Of a DNA stretch of 64,000 bases, positions 34,459 through 39,881 are shown piece after piece. The DNA comes from Tildeniella nuda ZEHNDER 1965/U140. Its GTDB lineage: Bacteria; Cyanobacteriota; Cyanobacteriia; Leptolyngbyales; Leptolyngbyaceae. The translations under genes were made by a program, and so were the position numbers. The notes beneath the pieces are model-generated. The model saw only the letters and a list, made by a program, of their open reading frames with translations, had not been told where the DNA came from and did not search any database. Location of the stretch: the NCBI GenBank assembly GCA_019358895.1, contig JAHHIG010000017.1, forward strand, positions 1-64,000. The letters are read 5' to 3'. Numbering within the stretch: the first letter of the stretch is position 1; each line of letters begins with the position of its first letter.

Positions 34459-34652
34459 GCTTGAGAGGGAGAGGGGAGAGGGGAGAGGAGCCAGGAATCA
34501 GAAGTCAGGAGTCAGGAGTCAGAAGCAGGGGAGGCAGGGGGAGCAGAGGGAGCAAGGGAAGCAGAGGAGTTAAAGGAAGCAGAATTAATTCAAAACTCAA
34601 AACTCGACACTCAAAACTCTTCCCCCACACCCCACACCCCACTCCCACCGTC
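34459..34652. repeat. GGGGAGAGGG / CAGGAGTCAG low-complexity block
   Basis: Purine-rich runs (GAGAGGGGAGAGGGGAGAGG) and CAGGAGT-type units fill this spacer between mrp and rodA. An overlapping open frame on the plus strand is an artefact of the repeat composition. Confidence 0.75.
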
Positions 34653-35891: not shown

Positions 35892-36830
35892 TCAGTCTGC
35901 GTTTGCTTGCACCATTTCCTTCCGCAGTTCCAGGTAGCGATGCAGATATTCTGAAATGATGCCGTGGAGCAAGAGATTACGGGCAGCGCCAAACGGACTT
36001 TCGGGAGCCAGCGGGTGACGGTTGGTAATGACGTGGTTCCAGTTGTAGTCGCCTGTGAGCGCACTGATGTAGCAGCCAAAGTTTTCGTCAAATTCCAGAG
36101 AGAGGACGGCGCGTTCAAACTCGTCGCTAGTGAGACAGAGTGAATAGAAGACTTTGAAGAGTTCGATCGCCGACTCCAGATCCAAAATGCGTAACCAGCG
36201 TCGTTTGGTGAAATCAATGTCTACCTGCACCGATTTGATGCTGTCAAAATTCAACCCGCGAACCTGTACCTGCTTTAGCCAGTGAGAGTTTTCGCGCTGT
36301 GCCTTGTTGTAATCCAGCACAAAGTTATAGAGAATCAAATCGTGTTCAAGAAACGCATTTTCTGCCAGATCGCTAACAGTGCGGGGATAGAGCTTAGATT
36401 TCTCGATCGTCGGATCAGGTCCGTTATCAATCAAGAAATTCACAATATTAGAGCCGAGGCAAATGTGCCGCACGATGAGATAGCAGGCTTCGGGCGACAC
36501 AAAGGTATTGAGAAACCAGGCTGCCGATCGATGCATCAGCGTGTAGTTGCTGAATTGAAAGGGTAGCAGTCGCTTCACCGTCATAATCAGCGCCAGCAGC
36601 AGATTCGCAATCAAGGCGATCGGCACTAATAAATAGCTGCGCGTCCAGTTTCGCAAATCTCGAATCATGTAGCCCTTCGCGATCGGGTCTACTGGAATTG
36701 CCTGATCGACATAGAGCGCATCCCACGCATTGGGATTCCGGCGATCGTGCGGTTCTGGAATGTAGGGCTGGGAAACTTTTGAGGATGCAGGGGTTTCTAA
36801 CGCTTGTGAGATTAATTCGGCTTGGCTCAT
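35892..36830 (-). CDS. Membrane-anchored hypothetical paired with ketosynthase-diiron fusion
   Basis: I do not recognise this 312-residue protein. An N-terminal polar region (DRRNPNAWDALYVDQAIPVDPI) leads to one hydrophobic segment, YLLVPIALIANLLLALIMTV, followed by a large cytosolic or peripheral part. That part includes MHRSAAWFLNTFVSPEACY, LDYNKAQRENSHWLK and a C-terminal ARNLLLHGIISEYLHRYLELRKEM helix. His residues in RHICLGS, EHDLILYN and NRHPLAPE could bind metal, but no known motif fits. It lies 97 bp downstream of the fusion gene on the same strand, so it is probably co-transcribed and may be its membrane partner. Confidence 0.75.
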   Translation of the reverse strand: MSQAELISQALETPASSKVSQPYIPEPHDRRNPNAWDALYVDQAIPVDPIAKGYMIRDLRNWTRSYLLVPIALIANLLLALIMTVKRLLPFQFSNYTLMHRSAAWFLNTFVSPEACYLIVRHICLGSNIVNFLIDNGPDPTIEKSKLYPRTVSDLAENAFLEHDLILYNFVLDYNKAQRENSHWLKQVQVRGLNFDSIKSVQVDIDFTKRRWLRILDLESAIELFKVFYSLCLTSDEFERAVLSLEFDENFGCYISALTGDYNWNHVITNRHPLAPESPFGAARNLLLHGIISEYLHRYLELRKEMVQANAD

Positions 36831-36927
36831 GGCGATCGACAGGATAGAGTTTTTACTGAAGTAGAAGGTTTACCGCAGAGACGCAGAGGACACAGAGTTT
36901 CAATTTCTCTGCGTCTCAGCGGTTCAT

Positions 36928-38976
36928 TTATTGAATTTCTTCCAGTTGCAGTCGGTAGAGTCGGGCAGTGACTTTCGCAGTTTTGAGGACGCGATCGGCA
37001 ATCTCTTGCGTCATCCATTCGGCGTTAATCAATTCATTCAGCTTGCCCAGATGTGCTTCGTCATTCGCGCCGTGATAGCCCAAAAACGATACCTGTTCAT
37101 CCTTTAGCCCCAGCGTTGACTTAATTTGCGCTGCCCATTGTGCTGCCAGATTATTACCCAGCCCTTCAATAATAAACATGCTCCCCAGCAGGTCTACCGG
37201 ATTTTCGCGGGATGCCTGATGGAAAATAAACGCCGACAGTGCTTCACTGCCAATGTTCTTTTCTGCATTCACAATCTCCTCCAACACGCCGCCAACCGAA
37301 ACGTAATTGCGCTCTAACATCTGGTAATCGCGGTGTTCATCTTGAGCATGACCAATGAAGGTCGATCGCAGCCGAAAGTCTGTCATATTCGACGCAGCAC
37401 GCGCAATCCATCGTGCTCCTTCCACCACCTGCGGACGCAAATTTTGCAGCATCGCCTTATAGTCATCCAGCGTAAATTCTCCTCGATGTAGCTTTCGCAC
37501 AATGGGCACCGATCGAATCTCCCGCTCAAACTCTAGCCAGACGAGGGCGAGTTGACGCAGCAGGTAGGCAGAGACGGATTCTTCGGGTGTGGGGTGTAGG
37601 GTGTGGGGTGTAGGGGAAGAGTTTCGAGTTTCGAGTTTCGAGTTTCGAGTTAGGTTGTTGGATGAATGAGACATGGGGTTTGGGGTTTGGGGTAAAGAGT
37701 TTTGAGTAATGCTTTGTGCAGATGCGCCAGAGAGTTGTGAGTTGCAGATTAATTCTGCTTCCTCTGCTTCCCTTCCTCCCTCTGCTTCCCCATCTCCTGA
37801 CTCCTGACTCCTGACTTCTAACACCTCTCCCCTCTCTCCTCTCCCCTCACCTCCTACAACCGTCAACATCATATACGCCGTTGTAAAGCGTCCGCTTTCT
37901 GGTACAAAACAGAAAATCTTTTGACCGGGTTGTAACTTGCCAGAATGAAATAGTTCTTCCAACATTAAATAGATGGAAGCGCACCCTGTATTGCCGCGAG
38001 TATAGAGGTTCGTGAACCATTTCTCTTCGGGAATCATGCAGTTTGCTTTTTCTAGCAGTTCCACAATTTGTCCTCGGAAAAAGTGCGATGAGTAATGACA
38101 CAACAACCAATCAATGTCATCGGGTTGGACGCGCCCTCGCTCGATTAATTTCAACCAACCTTCCACACCAAGCTTGATGACGTTATCCAAAAGGCGAATA
38201 TTTTGACGTAAATTAATGGTTCCAGATTCAGCGGCTTGCAGATAAGAGGGGTAATCCATCCAGCTTTTTTGAGCCGTTTCGTCTTCTGTGCCAGCATACA
38301 TACAAACGGGATAAGCGTTGGCGTGAGAAACCAATTCAATCCACTCAATCTTTAAGCTGATACCTGAAATATTGGGATGATCTTGAACTAGGAAAGCGCC
38401 TGCACCATCTGAGAGCATCCAGCGCAGAAATTCAGTATCAAAACTAAGGGCTTTTCCTGTTTTGACGTTCGCTTCTGCTTCAAAGTGAGTGTGTTTAAAC
38501 AGTCGTGAGGGTAGTTCGGATGCAACCGCTATCGCCGCTCTCTTTTCACCCAATTTCACCTGCGATGCCGCATATTTCAATGCAGCAACTCCAGCACAAC
38601 ATACGCCTTGATTAGAGGTCACTTCAATGGGCGAAAGCTCAGGTAAAGCGCCGTGTACCATACTGCCGAAACCGGGAACAAGCACGTCTGACCAACTGGT
38701 GGCAGAGGCAAGAAGGTCGATCGCGCCCGGTTCTAAATTTGCGTTTGATATAGCATCACGAATGGCGATCGCTGCCATTTGACTGTTACTATAAGTGGTC
38801 TGTTGCTGCTGGTCGATCGCATAGTAACGCTGCTGAATGCCGTTACTTTTAAGAATGCGATGTTTGGCTTTAGAGGGACGACCATTGACTTTCCCTAAAT
38901 AATCTTCCATCTCGTCATTGGCGATCGGCTTTCCAGGCAAAAACTTGCCGATGCTGTTAATGAATACACCGTGCAT
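36928..38976 (-). CDS. Ketosynthase III (FabH-like) fused to heme-oxygenase-like diiron domain
   Basis: The 682-residue fusion starts with a FabH/chalcone-synthase-like domain (about 1-375). The Cys nucleophile is Cys127 in NQGVCCAGVAAL, His294 lies in LLCHYSSHFF and Asn329 in RGNTGCASIYLM, so the condensing triad is intact. A disordered low-complexity linker covers about 376-465. The C-terminal domain (466-682) has the heme-oxygenase-like diiron fold, with Glu604 in IIEGLGNN and His635-x3-Asp639-x2-His642, plus His/Glu residues in GHAQDEHRDYQ at 541-551. It likely condenses an acyl group and then oxidises it. The linker is encoded by intergenic-type repeats. The product is unknown. Confidence 0.88.
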   Translation of the reverse strand: MHGVFINSIGKFLPGKPIANDEMEDYLGKVNGRPSKAKHRILKSNGIQQRYYAIDQQQQTTYSNSQMAAIAIRDAISNANLEPGAIDLLASATSWSDVLVPGFGSMVHGALPELSPIEVTSNQGVCCAGVAALKYAASQVKLGEKRAAIAVASELPSRLFKHTHFEAEANVKTGKALSFDTEFLRWMLSDGAGAFLVQDHPNISGISLKIEWIELVSHANAYPVCMYAGTEDETAQKSWMDYPSYLQAAESGTINLRQNIRLLDNVIKLGVEGWLKLIERGRVQPDDIDWLLCHYSSHFFRGQIVELLEKANCMIPEEKWFTNLYTRGNTGCASIYLMLEELFHSGKLQPGQKIFCFVPESGRFTTAYMMLTVVGGEGRGERGEVLEVRSQESGDGEAEGGREAEEAELICNSQLSGASAQSITQNSLPQTPNPMSHSSNNLTRNSKLETRNSSPTPHTLHPTPEESVSAYLLRQLALVWLEFEREIRSVPIVRKLHRGEFTLDDYKAMLQNLRPQVVEGARWIARAASNMTDFRLRSTFIGHAQDEHRDYQMLERNYVSVGGVLEEIVNAEKNIGSEALSAFIFHQASRENPVDLLGSMFIIEGLGNNLAAQWAAQIKSTLGLKDEQVSFLGYHGANDEAHLGKLNELINAEWMTQEIADRVLKTAKVTARLYRLQLEEIQ
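37580..37853. repeat. In-frame low-complexity repeat forming the fusion-protein linker
   Basis: Within the fusion gene, units such as GTTTCGAGTTTCGAGTTTCG, GGGGTGTAGGGTGTGG and TCCTGACTCCTGACTCCTGAC repeat in tandem. These are the same kinds of unit found between genes at 34459-34652 and 39890-40040. The reading frame stays open across about 90 codons. Confidence 0.85.
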
Positions 38977-39132
38977 ATTGTGACTCGTTTTGTGAAAAGG
39001 TAATTTTGAGGGCGATCGCGCCCTAATTCAAACACTCAAACCTTGATACTCTCAGTCTGAAGCACTCATTGATCACTTTCATCCTCAACAAATCTGATCG
39101 CTTGGAACTTTTTGCAAGTGAATCAATCAAGT

Positions 39133-39246
39133 AATCTGTCGGAGATTCCTGAACTATGGTTAAGAAAAATACGCTACTCCATGAAGCCTAGAGACTGGCT
39201 CCGCAGCTTTCTAAAATATCTAAACTAACCATAAGCTCGACAGATT
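39133..39246. promoter_or_regulatory. Nested inverted repeat in divergent promoter of ketosynthase and Coq4-like genes
   Basis: AATCTGTCG (39133-39141) pairs with CGACAGATT (39238-39246), and inside it TATGGTTA (39155-39162) pairs with TAACCATA (39226-39233). The arms are nested at one axis. The spacer between the two divergent genes is 395 bp with no gene. Confidence 0.5.
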
Positions 39247-39277
39247 GACTCTAGTAATTTTGCGTAGAGTTTGACAG

Positions 39278-39312
39278 AAATTTGTGACACTTTCATTCAC
39301 TGTCACAAATTT
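39278..39312. promoter_or_regulatory. Perfect 12-bp inverted repeat, candidate operator
   Basis: AAATTTGTGACA and TGTCACAAATTT are exact complements separated by 11 bp, about 60 bp upstream of the Coq4-like start. No T-run follows, so it is not an obvious terminator. The TGTGACA half resembles CRP/FNR-family half-sites, but the spacing is larger than theirs. It could serve a dimeric regulator. Confidence 0.55.
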
Positions 39313-39371
39313 GACGCTTTCGCGATCGATTTTGAGCAGACTAATCATAAAGCTCAACTAAAATACAGGTG

Positions 39372-39881
39372 ATGGACACGATCGATACGCTTAGTTTGCC
39401 CATTGAACCACCGCAACAACCGTTCACGCTGCGGCAGGGACTTGAACGCTACTATCAAGCGAACCCCGATTTTGTGCGCGATCAAAACCTCTGGGTTGGC
39501 ATTATGTGCATTCCCTGGTGCGACATGCAGCGACACGACATTATGCATGTGGTCACAGGCTACAGCACCGCTCTGGAACAAGAACTCCAACTCATTGGCT
39601 TTTTGCTCACATCGCTTACCTGGAAGCGTCCCTGGTACTACTACGCCCAAAGCTTTGTGGTGTTTCTAGAGCTTCTGTGGCAGTCTCTACAGGGCAAAGC
39701 GTGGGGCGGCGTTTATCACAATCCTGTGCAGGTCTGCCAACTGTACCTGAAAGGAGCGAAGCAGGGCTTGACGGTTCACAAAAAGATTGATGCTTACATT
39801 GATCCTGAGACGGTACTCGATCGCTCCCTCCTATTACTCCGATCGGATTACGGCATCCAGAACGCAGGCGCGTGGGATTGA
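39372..39881 (+). CDS. Coq4-like protein
   Basis: The start at the ATG at 39372 (a GTG directly before it is also in frame) gives 169 residues. The key motif is HDIMHVVTGYSTALEQE, exactly the HDxxH-x11-E metal site of Coq4, with His55, Asp56, His59 and Glu71. Coq4 acts in ubiquinone synthesis in eukaryotes and proteobacteria, where it is tied to C1 decarboxylation and hydroxylation. Cyanobacteria make plastoquinone instead, so the substrate must differ. It is divergent from the ketosynthase-diiron gene and shares its promoter region, suggesting a common pathway. Confidence 0.8.
   Translation: MDTIDTLSLPIEPPQQPFTLRQGLERYYQANPDFVRDQNLWVGIMCIPWCDMQRHDIMHVVTGYSTALEQELQLIGFLLTSLTWKRPWYYYAQSFVVFLELLWQSLQGKAWGGVYHNPVQVCQLYLKGAKQGLTVHKKIDAYIDPETVLDRSLLLLRSDYGIQNAGAWD

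Follow-up and report, generated by a model that had tools for sequence, protein, structure and literature searches.

A Conserved Unit of a StlD/DarB-Like Ketosynthase, a Heme-Oxygenase-Like Oxidase and a DUF6999 Protein in Tildeniella nuda: Candidate Genes for an O2-Dependent Lipid Pathway

Introduction

The ketosynthase (KS) DarB condenses a beta-ketoacyl thioester with an unsaturated acyl thioester to give 4-carboxy-2,5-dialkylcyclohexane-1,3-diones (PMC5515871; PMC4578411), and the gene annotated as the aromatase in dialkylresorcinol clusters is darA (PMC3949708). Heme-oxygenase-like diiron oxidases (HDOs) share the ligand motif E-H-E-H-(D/E)-H (PMC11363339), and the ligands of MboA are Glu86, His89, Glu143, His172, Asp176 and His181 (PMC13185094). 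Human COQ4 is an oxidative decarboxylase, which in a single reaction puts a hydroxyl in the place of a carboxylate on the ring (PMC11495197). In this work, we describe a gene cluster embedding relatives of DarB, of the HDOs and of COQ4 in a stretch of 64,000 nucleotides (hereafter, the window) from the cyanobacterium Tildeniella nuda ZEHNDER 1965/U140, the piece studied being that from position 35,892 to 39,881.

A previous sequence-only reading of this piece had placed three open reading frames (ORFs) in it, all of which were found in the sequence at those places. They are a gene of 682 codons (36928-38976, minus strand) joining a KS to a heme-oxygenase-like (HO) domain; a gene coding for a 312-residue protein of the Pfam family DUF6999 (35892-36830, minus strand), 97 bp downstream of the fusion; and a small Coq4-like gene (39372-39881, plus strand), whose product has 169 residues from the ATG at 39372 or 170 from a GTG one codon upstream (39369). 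On the basis of the sequence comparisons described below, we give about an even chance to the idea that these genes belong to a lipid pathway, O2-dependent and so far uncharacterised, whose DarB-like condensation product would be oxidised by the HO domain, with the DUF6999 protein acting at the membrane.

The KS-HO-DUF6999 Unit and Its Phylogenetic Distribution

The KS, the HO oxidase and the DUF6999 protein (the triad) represent a conserved core unit, which is shared by at least six bacterial groups: Cyanobacteria, Bacteroidota, Bacillota, Myxococcota, Alphaproteobacteria and Gammaproteobacteria. The intact fusion was retrieved from seven out of 292 Cyanobacteria genomes and DUF6999 from the same seven, the two genes being adjacent and contiguous each time; since both occur in the same seven genomes, their pairing is not due to chance. 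The scan of the genome collection with the DUF6999 alignment yielded 155 relatives, and 80 loci were kept. In all 80 loci harboring both HO and DUF6999 (a set which includes loci from other searches and a few contigs fetched twice), the two share a strand, and most pairs either overlap or are separated by no more than about 30 bp. The organisms concerned include Maribacter, Flagellimonas and Niastella among the Bacteroidota, Paenibacillus, Corallococcus, Sorangium, Alphaproteobacteria, Melainabacteria, and Pseudoalteromonas, where the module is located on a plasmid. Among the control genomes, that of Caulobacter vibrioides matched both DUF6999 and PF14518 (the Pfam family of the HO domain). 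Moreover, in the order of Aquisalinus luteolus the module is present in 15 out of 200 genomes (that of A. luteolus included), with HO directly upstream of DUF6999 in 15 out of 15 loci and, considering a flank of 1.5 kb, a KS upstream in 14 of them.

The sequence-only reading had expected the three genes to be found together in other genomes. The neighbourhood was indeed conserved when tested, the part of the expectation that holds being the core formed by KS, HO and DUF6999; the Coq4-like gene turned out to be an accessory of some cyanobacteria only.

The KS and HO domains are fused in Cyanobacteria, Bacteroidota, Paenibacillus, Corallococcus and Caenispirillum, and encoded by separate genes in Alphaproteobacteria, Sorangium, Melainabacteria and Pseudoalteromonas. 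As a rule, two domains that share a polypeptide in part of the lineages and are encoded side by side in the rest work one after the other. In two cyanobacterial loci (L088:7754-9994 and L091:3376-5219) KS and HO are separate ORFs, apparently resulting from the re-splitting of a fusion. In a further genome (G099, L039:9386-10981) stop codons interrupt the fusion and there is no DUF6999, a pattern which reads as a decaying copy of the module, as if both genes had been lost together. Four cyanobacterial DUF6999 loci have no fusion nearby; we discarded them as counter-examples, since three of the four genomes harbor the fusion elsewhere and the fourth is a fragmentary metagenome-assembled genome.

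The Ketosynthase Domain

The KS domain spans residues 1-374 of the fusion protein (37855-38976, minus strand). Pfam recognised ACP_syn_III_C in this part of the protein, and the sequence-only reading had considered the domain FabH-like. The existence of a fusion between a KS and an HO domain is borne out by the Pfam and NCBIfam matches to both parts; the kind of KS is another, since the domain belongs beside StlD/DarB. It scored 458.9 bits against NCBIfam NF005293 (StlD/DarB), above the cut-off of 450, versus 74-84 bits for FabH models; a FabH (KAS III) identity was ruled out by the 74.4 bits obtained with the NCBIfam FabH model, whose cut-off is 292.1. A separate gene of the KAS III type is present elsewhere in the T. 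nuda genome. Furthermore, the domain aligned end to end with StlD (PDB 5gk0), over its full length, with a phmmer E-value of 6e-90. As for NF053539, the NCBIfam model for the DarB of dialkylresorcinol synthesis, the score was 411.1 bits, below the cut-off of 550, which the bartoloside-type DarB itself (505) does not reach.

Cys126 (38599-38601), His294 and Asn329 align with the catalytic positions of StlD and are invariant in 82 sequences; for both reasons they are, according to the alignment, the catalytic residues of the domain, which also harbors a conserved Glu154. The catalytic cysteine had previously been read as Cys127, one position off. Given its family, the KS probably joins two acyl chains, and by analogy with DarB it would perhaps make a 2,5-dialkylcyclohexane-1,3-dione.

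Two sampled cyanobacterial genomes of one genus (G076 and G093) possess a StlD/DarB KS without HO or DUF6999. Their loci (L040:8371-14625 and L041:5724-11835) embed a gene for a 311-residue flavodoxin-like protein before the KS, the position that darA has relative to darB, a gene for an 830-residue protein and a glycosyltransferase-like gene. We take these loci to be bartoloside-type clusters and the 311-residue product to be DarA-like; probing NCBIfam with the latter gave no match. The idea that the T. nuda locus is itself a bartoloside-type cluster was abandoned, as the two comparison loci have DarA-like and glycosyltransferase-like genes and neither HO nor DUF6999. A DarA-like homologue was absent from 40 of the 41 triad genomes searched, T. 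nuda included, the sole match being in a Maribacter; both comparison genomes matched.

The Heme-Oxygenase-Like Oxidase Domain

The HO domain corresponds to residues 469-682 plus the stop codon (36928-37572, minus strand) and matched Pfam PF14518 (Haem_oxygenas_2) with an E-value of 5.5e-7. Its AlphaFold2 model (pLDDT 92, pTM 0.88) confirmed, as far as a prediction can, a heme-oxygenase-like fold: Foldseek retrieved PDB 3dde with a template modelling (TM) score of 0.83 and CADD with 0.83/0.88, UndA being further away (TM about 0.7).

In the multialignment of about 80 relatives, His543, Glu547, His548, Asp550, Glu555, Glu604, His635, Asp639 and His642 are invariant; the residues of the fusion named in the sequence-only reading (His294, Asn329, Glu604, His635, Asp639 and His642) are all present and invariant across the same relatives. 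By alignment through 3dde to MboA, Glu547 falls on Glu86 and the invariant Asp550 on His89; we derived these residue matches from the alignment as printed and from how the ligands are spaced. Of the six canonical ligand positions, five are occupied and invariant, and the sixth, that of the helix-1 histidine, has an invariant aspartate, which answers by half the question of whether the diiron site formerly proposed lacks ligands; judging from the alignment, the metal site is near-canonical with one fixed change.

This change raises the question of whether the usual diiron centre is formed at all. With Asp550 at the position of the canonical histidine, the domain might bind a single metal like FlcD or be metal-free like PqqC, HDOs of both kinds being known (PMC11363339), and it would then act as a mononuclear oxygenase or a cofactor-free oxidase. 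We regard this as rather unlikely: Glu547, Glu604, His635, Asp639 and His642 are retained without exception, while in FlcD the ligands at the last two positions have been lost; the invariant His543 and His548 could replace the missing histidine; and in MboA the aspartate next to the corresponding histidine can bind Fe1 (PMC13185094).

Two further PF14518 proteins are encoded outside the window in the T. nuda genome (G000:C15:40146-40676 and G000:C34:79062-79550).

The DUF6999 Protein

The product of the gene downstream of the fusion is an all-helical protein which matched Pfam PF22523 with an E-value of 6.9e-108 (360.3 bits, cut-off 27). Arg121, His122, His163, Asp164, Asp217, Asp248, Asn270, His289 and Glu294 are invariant in the family. 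The AlphaFold2 model is confident (pLDDT 92.9, pTM 0.89), and the protein may have an enzyme-like buried site; assignment to a known fold was rejected, none in the PDB matching it. The sequence-only reading was right about the presence of this 312-residue partner 97 bp downstream of the fusion, and less so about its being anchored by a single membrane span: the hydrophobic helix at about residues 62-88 is strong in cyanobacteria and amphipathic in the other lineages, so that a monotopic association with the membrane fits better. Searches of the open-access literature yielded neither a mention of DUF6999 nor a description of a ketosynthase paired with an HO-like diiron oxidase.

The Small Coq4-Like Protein and Other Accessory Genes

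The divergent 169-residue protein carries exactly the HDxxH-x11-E motif previously noticed in it, and its residues H56, D57, H60 and E72 are invariant in 17-18 homologues. The Pfam Coq4 model (PF05019) gave an E-value of 0.085 and 12.6 bits, not reaching the cut-off of 22.9. The family of the small protein was then aligned by hhalign with eleven true cyanobacterial Coq4 sequences, with a probability of 97.1 and an E-value of 7e-11 over a region spanning the motif; on the strength of this profile-profile match, the protein is to be considered a genuine, distant relative of Coq4. The presence of Coq4 as such is not a cyanobacterial anomaly, an idea we dismissed on finding the family in 27 out of 117 genomes.

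Among cyanobacteria, 17 distinct loci have this gene next to the triad, in a placement that varies from locus to locus (divergent upstream, downstream, or upstream on the same strand). In L085 and L090 it lies downstream and overlaps DUF6999 by 4 bp, and in L091 the order Coq4-like gene-KS-HO-DUF6999 is found on one strand. Strong matches were retrieved from only three of the 292 Cyanobacteria genomes, all three harboring the triad; the probability of this in a random draw, given seven triad genomes, is about 8.5e-6, related genomes not being independent. We excluded the gene from the core, and consider it optional, because it is absent from many triad genomes, as well as from the non-cyanobacterial triads searched. 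Small Coq4-like genes that are weak by Pfam lie near the triad in two marine Flavobacteriaceae (L117:6562-7017 and L122:16948-17400), and a weak relative of 168 residues (L043:8088-8594) is encoded by a triad-free genome of the same family as T. nuda.

Other genes accompany the triad elsewhere. A PF04116 fatty-acid hydroxylase gene directly precedes the fusion in L110 and L121 and is adjacent in L105, and a profile built from these neighbours detected further matches by the triad in L120 and L122; in Corallococcus terminator a PF00487 desaturase gene (L109:7626-8504) is located between KS-HO and DUF6999 in the same operon. In three distant lineages the triad with separate KS and HO genes is immediately preceded by a gene for a His-rich small membrane protein of 188-198 residues (L044:9612-10178, L106:7552-8133 and L111:4641-5237); no credible Pfam match was obtained for this protein in L044 or L106.

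These neighbours bear on the possibility that the unit makes or remodels a bulk lipid of the membrane or envelope in response to certain conditions and not a diffusible natural product; DUF6999 would then be a membrane protein that handles lipids instead of an enzyme. Hydroxylase and desaturase genes in several lineages would be in agreement with it, as would the hydrophobic or amphipathic helix of DUF6999 and a core without the transporter, regulator or tailoring genes typical of natural-product clusters. The patchy spread of the module (seven of the 292 Cyanobacteria, 15 of the 200 genomes in the order of A. luteolus) is more typical of a specialised product, however, and the invariant histidine, aspartate and glutamate residues of DUF6999 suggest catalysis; we hold this scenario to be improbable.

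The Linker and the Divergent Intergenic Region

The two domains of the fusion are connected by a low-complexity linker (residues 375-468; 37573-37854, minus strand), in which a dispersed repeat is read in frame. The linker is 94 residues long, versus 26-33 in the sampled non-cyanobacterial fusions, and the repeat has 57 further matches in the T. nuda genome. Since the linker of the fusion in locus L033 contains a different repeat-like sequence, such linkers seem, from these two sequences, to tolerate repeat insertions. The repeat of the T. nuda linker also occurs in the window at 34468-34646, upstream of a RodA/FtsW-like gene.

The gap between the divergent fusion and Coq4-like genes (38977-39371) presumably holds the promoters of both; no long ORF was found inside it, and promoter and terminator scans gave scores no better than those of shuffled sequence.

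A Possible Pathway

According to these data, we can depict the following scenario, centred on an O2-dependent lipid pathway. The KS would load an acyl thioester on Cys126 and condense it with a second one, as its family suggests; if the reaction is DarB-like, the product would be a 4-carboxy-2,5-dialkylcyclohexane-1,3-dione. The fused HO domain, as a dimetal O2-dependent oxidase with an altered set of helix-1 ligands, might then oxidise this product by aromatisation, desaturation or hydroxylation, in the stead of the DarA of dialkylresorcinol clusters; with DarA lacking, the oxidation would most naturally fall to the HO domain. DUF6999, in turn, would work on the lipid, or present it, at the membrane. 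Where a cyanobacterium has the Coq4-like protein, this may add a step, plausibly a decarboxylation, possibly oxidative, of the ring carboxylate, on which it could act because human COQ4 replaces such a carboxylate with a hydroxyl; in other lineages the fatty-acid hydroxylase or the desaturase encoded beside the triad might intervene. What had been proposed from the sequence alone, a pathway condensing acyl thioesters and oxidising the product within a conserved neighbourhood, is thus supported in outline; the kind of KS and the place of the Coq4-like gene in the core are what changed.

Several observations weigh against this scenario. Most triad KSs outside the group of the T. nuda sequence score 369-447 bits on NF005293, below 450, and the KS tree separates all the triad KSs from StlD and two bartoloside-type DarB sequences with 100% support and a long branch (only the unrooted split was used, the FabH outgroup sitting too far off, with an end branch of length 10, to place a root). 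Because of these low scores and of this split, ring formation is not assured. Moreover, the aspartate that stands for the helix-1 histidine of typical HDOs makes the metal content of the HO domain uncertain; DUF6999 has no match in the PDB by fold (best E-value 1.0), none that convinces by sequence, and no relative hinting at its activity; many triad genomes do not have the Coq4-like gene; and the cluster yielded neither a carrier protein nor a thioester ligase, the acyl chains being assumed to come from fatty-acid synthesis.

The same split would agree with a route in which no ring is formed. OleA, PpyS and the dialkylcyclohexanedione KSs all condense two acyl chains (PMC4578411), and an OleA-like head-to-head Claisen condensation could yield a beta-keto acid that the HO domain decarboxylates oxidatively or trims to a ketone, an alkene or a hydroxylated hydrocarbon lipid, a role for which the fatty-acid decarboxylase UndA (TM about 0.7) offers a precedent within the fold. 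To this we assign a small probability: the KS fits StlD/DarB far better than any FabH model and aligns with StlD from end to end, and the HO domain is nearer to CADD and 3dde than to UndA.

Returning to the DarB-like route, its most far-reaching version appears quite unlikely to us. The product would be a redox-active lipid of a class not seen before, a dialkyl hydroxy-resorcinol or quinone built from two acyl chains, for which the KS would form the carboxylated ring, the HO domain aromatise or hydroxylate it, the Coq4-like protein swap the carboxylate for a hydroxyl, and DUF6999, as a new enzyme fold, complete the head group at the membrane.

Significance and Comparison with Known Systems

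The strict conservation of this unstudied set of enzymes, in no fewer than six groups of bacteria, hints at a lipid that has not been looked for yet. The unit gives DUF6999, whose predicted fold is without a match among solved structures, its first functional context, and it defines a group of HO-like oxidases whose metal site carries an unusual and invariant change; recent work on HDOs expects such variants to reveal new chemistry (PMC11363339). It would also link a ring carboxylate to a Coq4-like protein in a context other than ubiquinone synthesis, where the action of Coq4 could be studied more simply.

Compared with the StlD/DarB enzymes of the dialkylresorcinol and stilbene pathways (Photorhabdus, Pseudomonas, Bacteroidota) and of cyanobacterial bartoloside-type clusters, the triad KSs share full-length homology and the Cys/His/Asn residues; they differ in their association, by fusion or as neighbours, with an HO oxidase and DUF6999 and without a DarA aromatase, and in forming a separate group in the tree, with many members below the family cut-off. 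The HO domain has in common with CADD, UndA, SznF, BesC, MboA and PDB 3dde the predicted fold, the helix-2 glutamate and the His-x3-Asp-x2-His of helix 3; it departs from them in the invariant aspartate in place of the helix-1 histidine, in the additional invariant His543 and His548, and in its covalent union with a KS, an arrangement not found in the open-access papers searched. The small Coq4-like protein shares with Coq4 the HDxxH-x11-E motif and the C-terminal half (profile probability 97%); unlike Coq4, it is only about 160-170 residues long, falls below the Pfam cut-off and is linked to the KS-HO module rather than to ubiquinone synthesis. Lastly, the T. nuda DUF6999 protein is a member of PF22523, a family without known function. 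The families of the single parts and the pathways based on two-chain KSs are known; what is new is their combination (not found described in the open-access literature), one predicted new fold, and the strict partnership of DUF6999 with a StlD/DarB-like KS and an HO oxidase.

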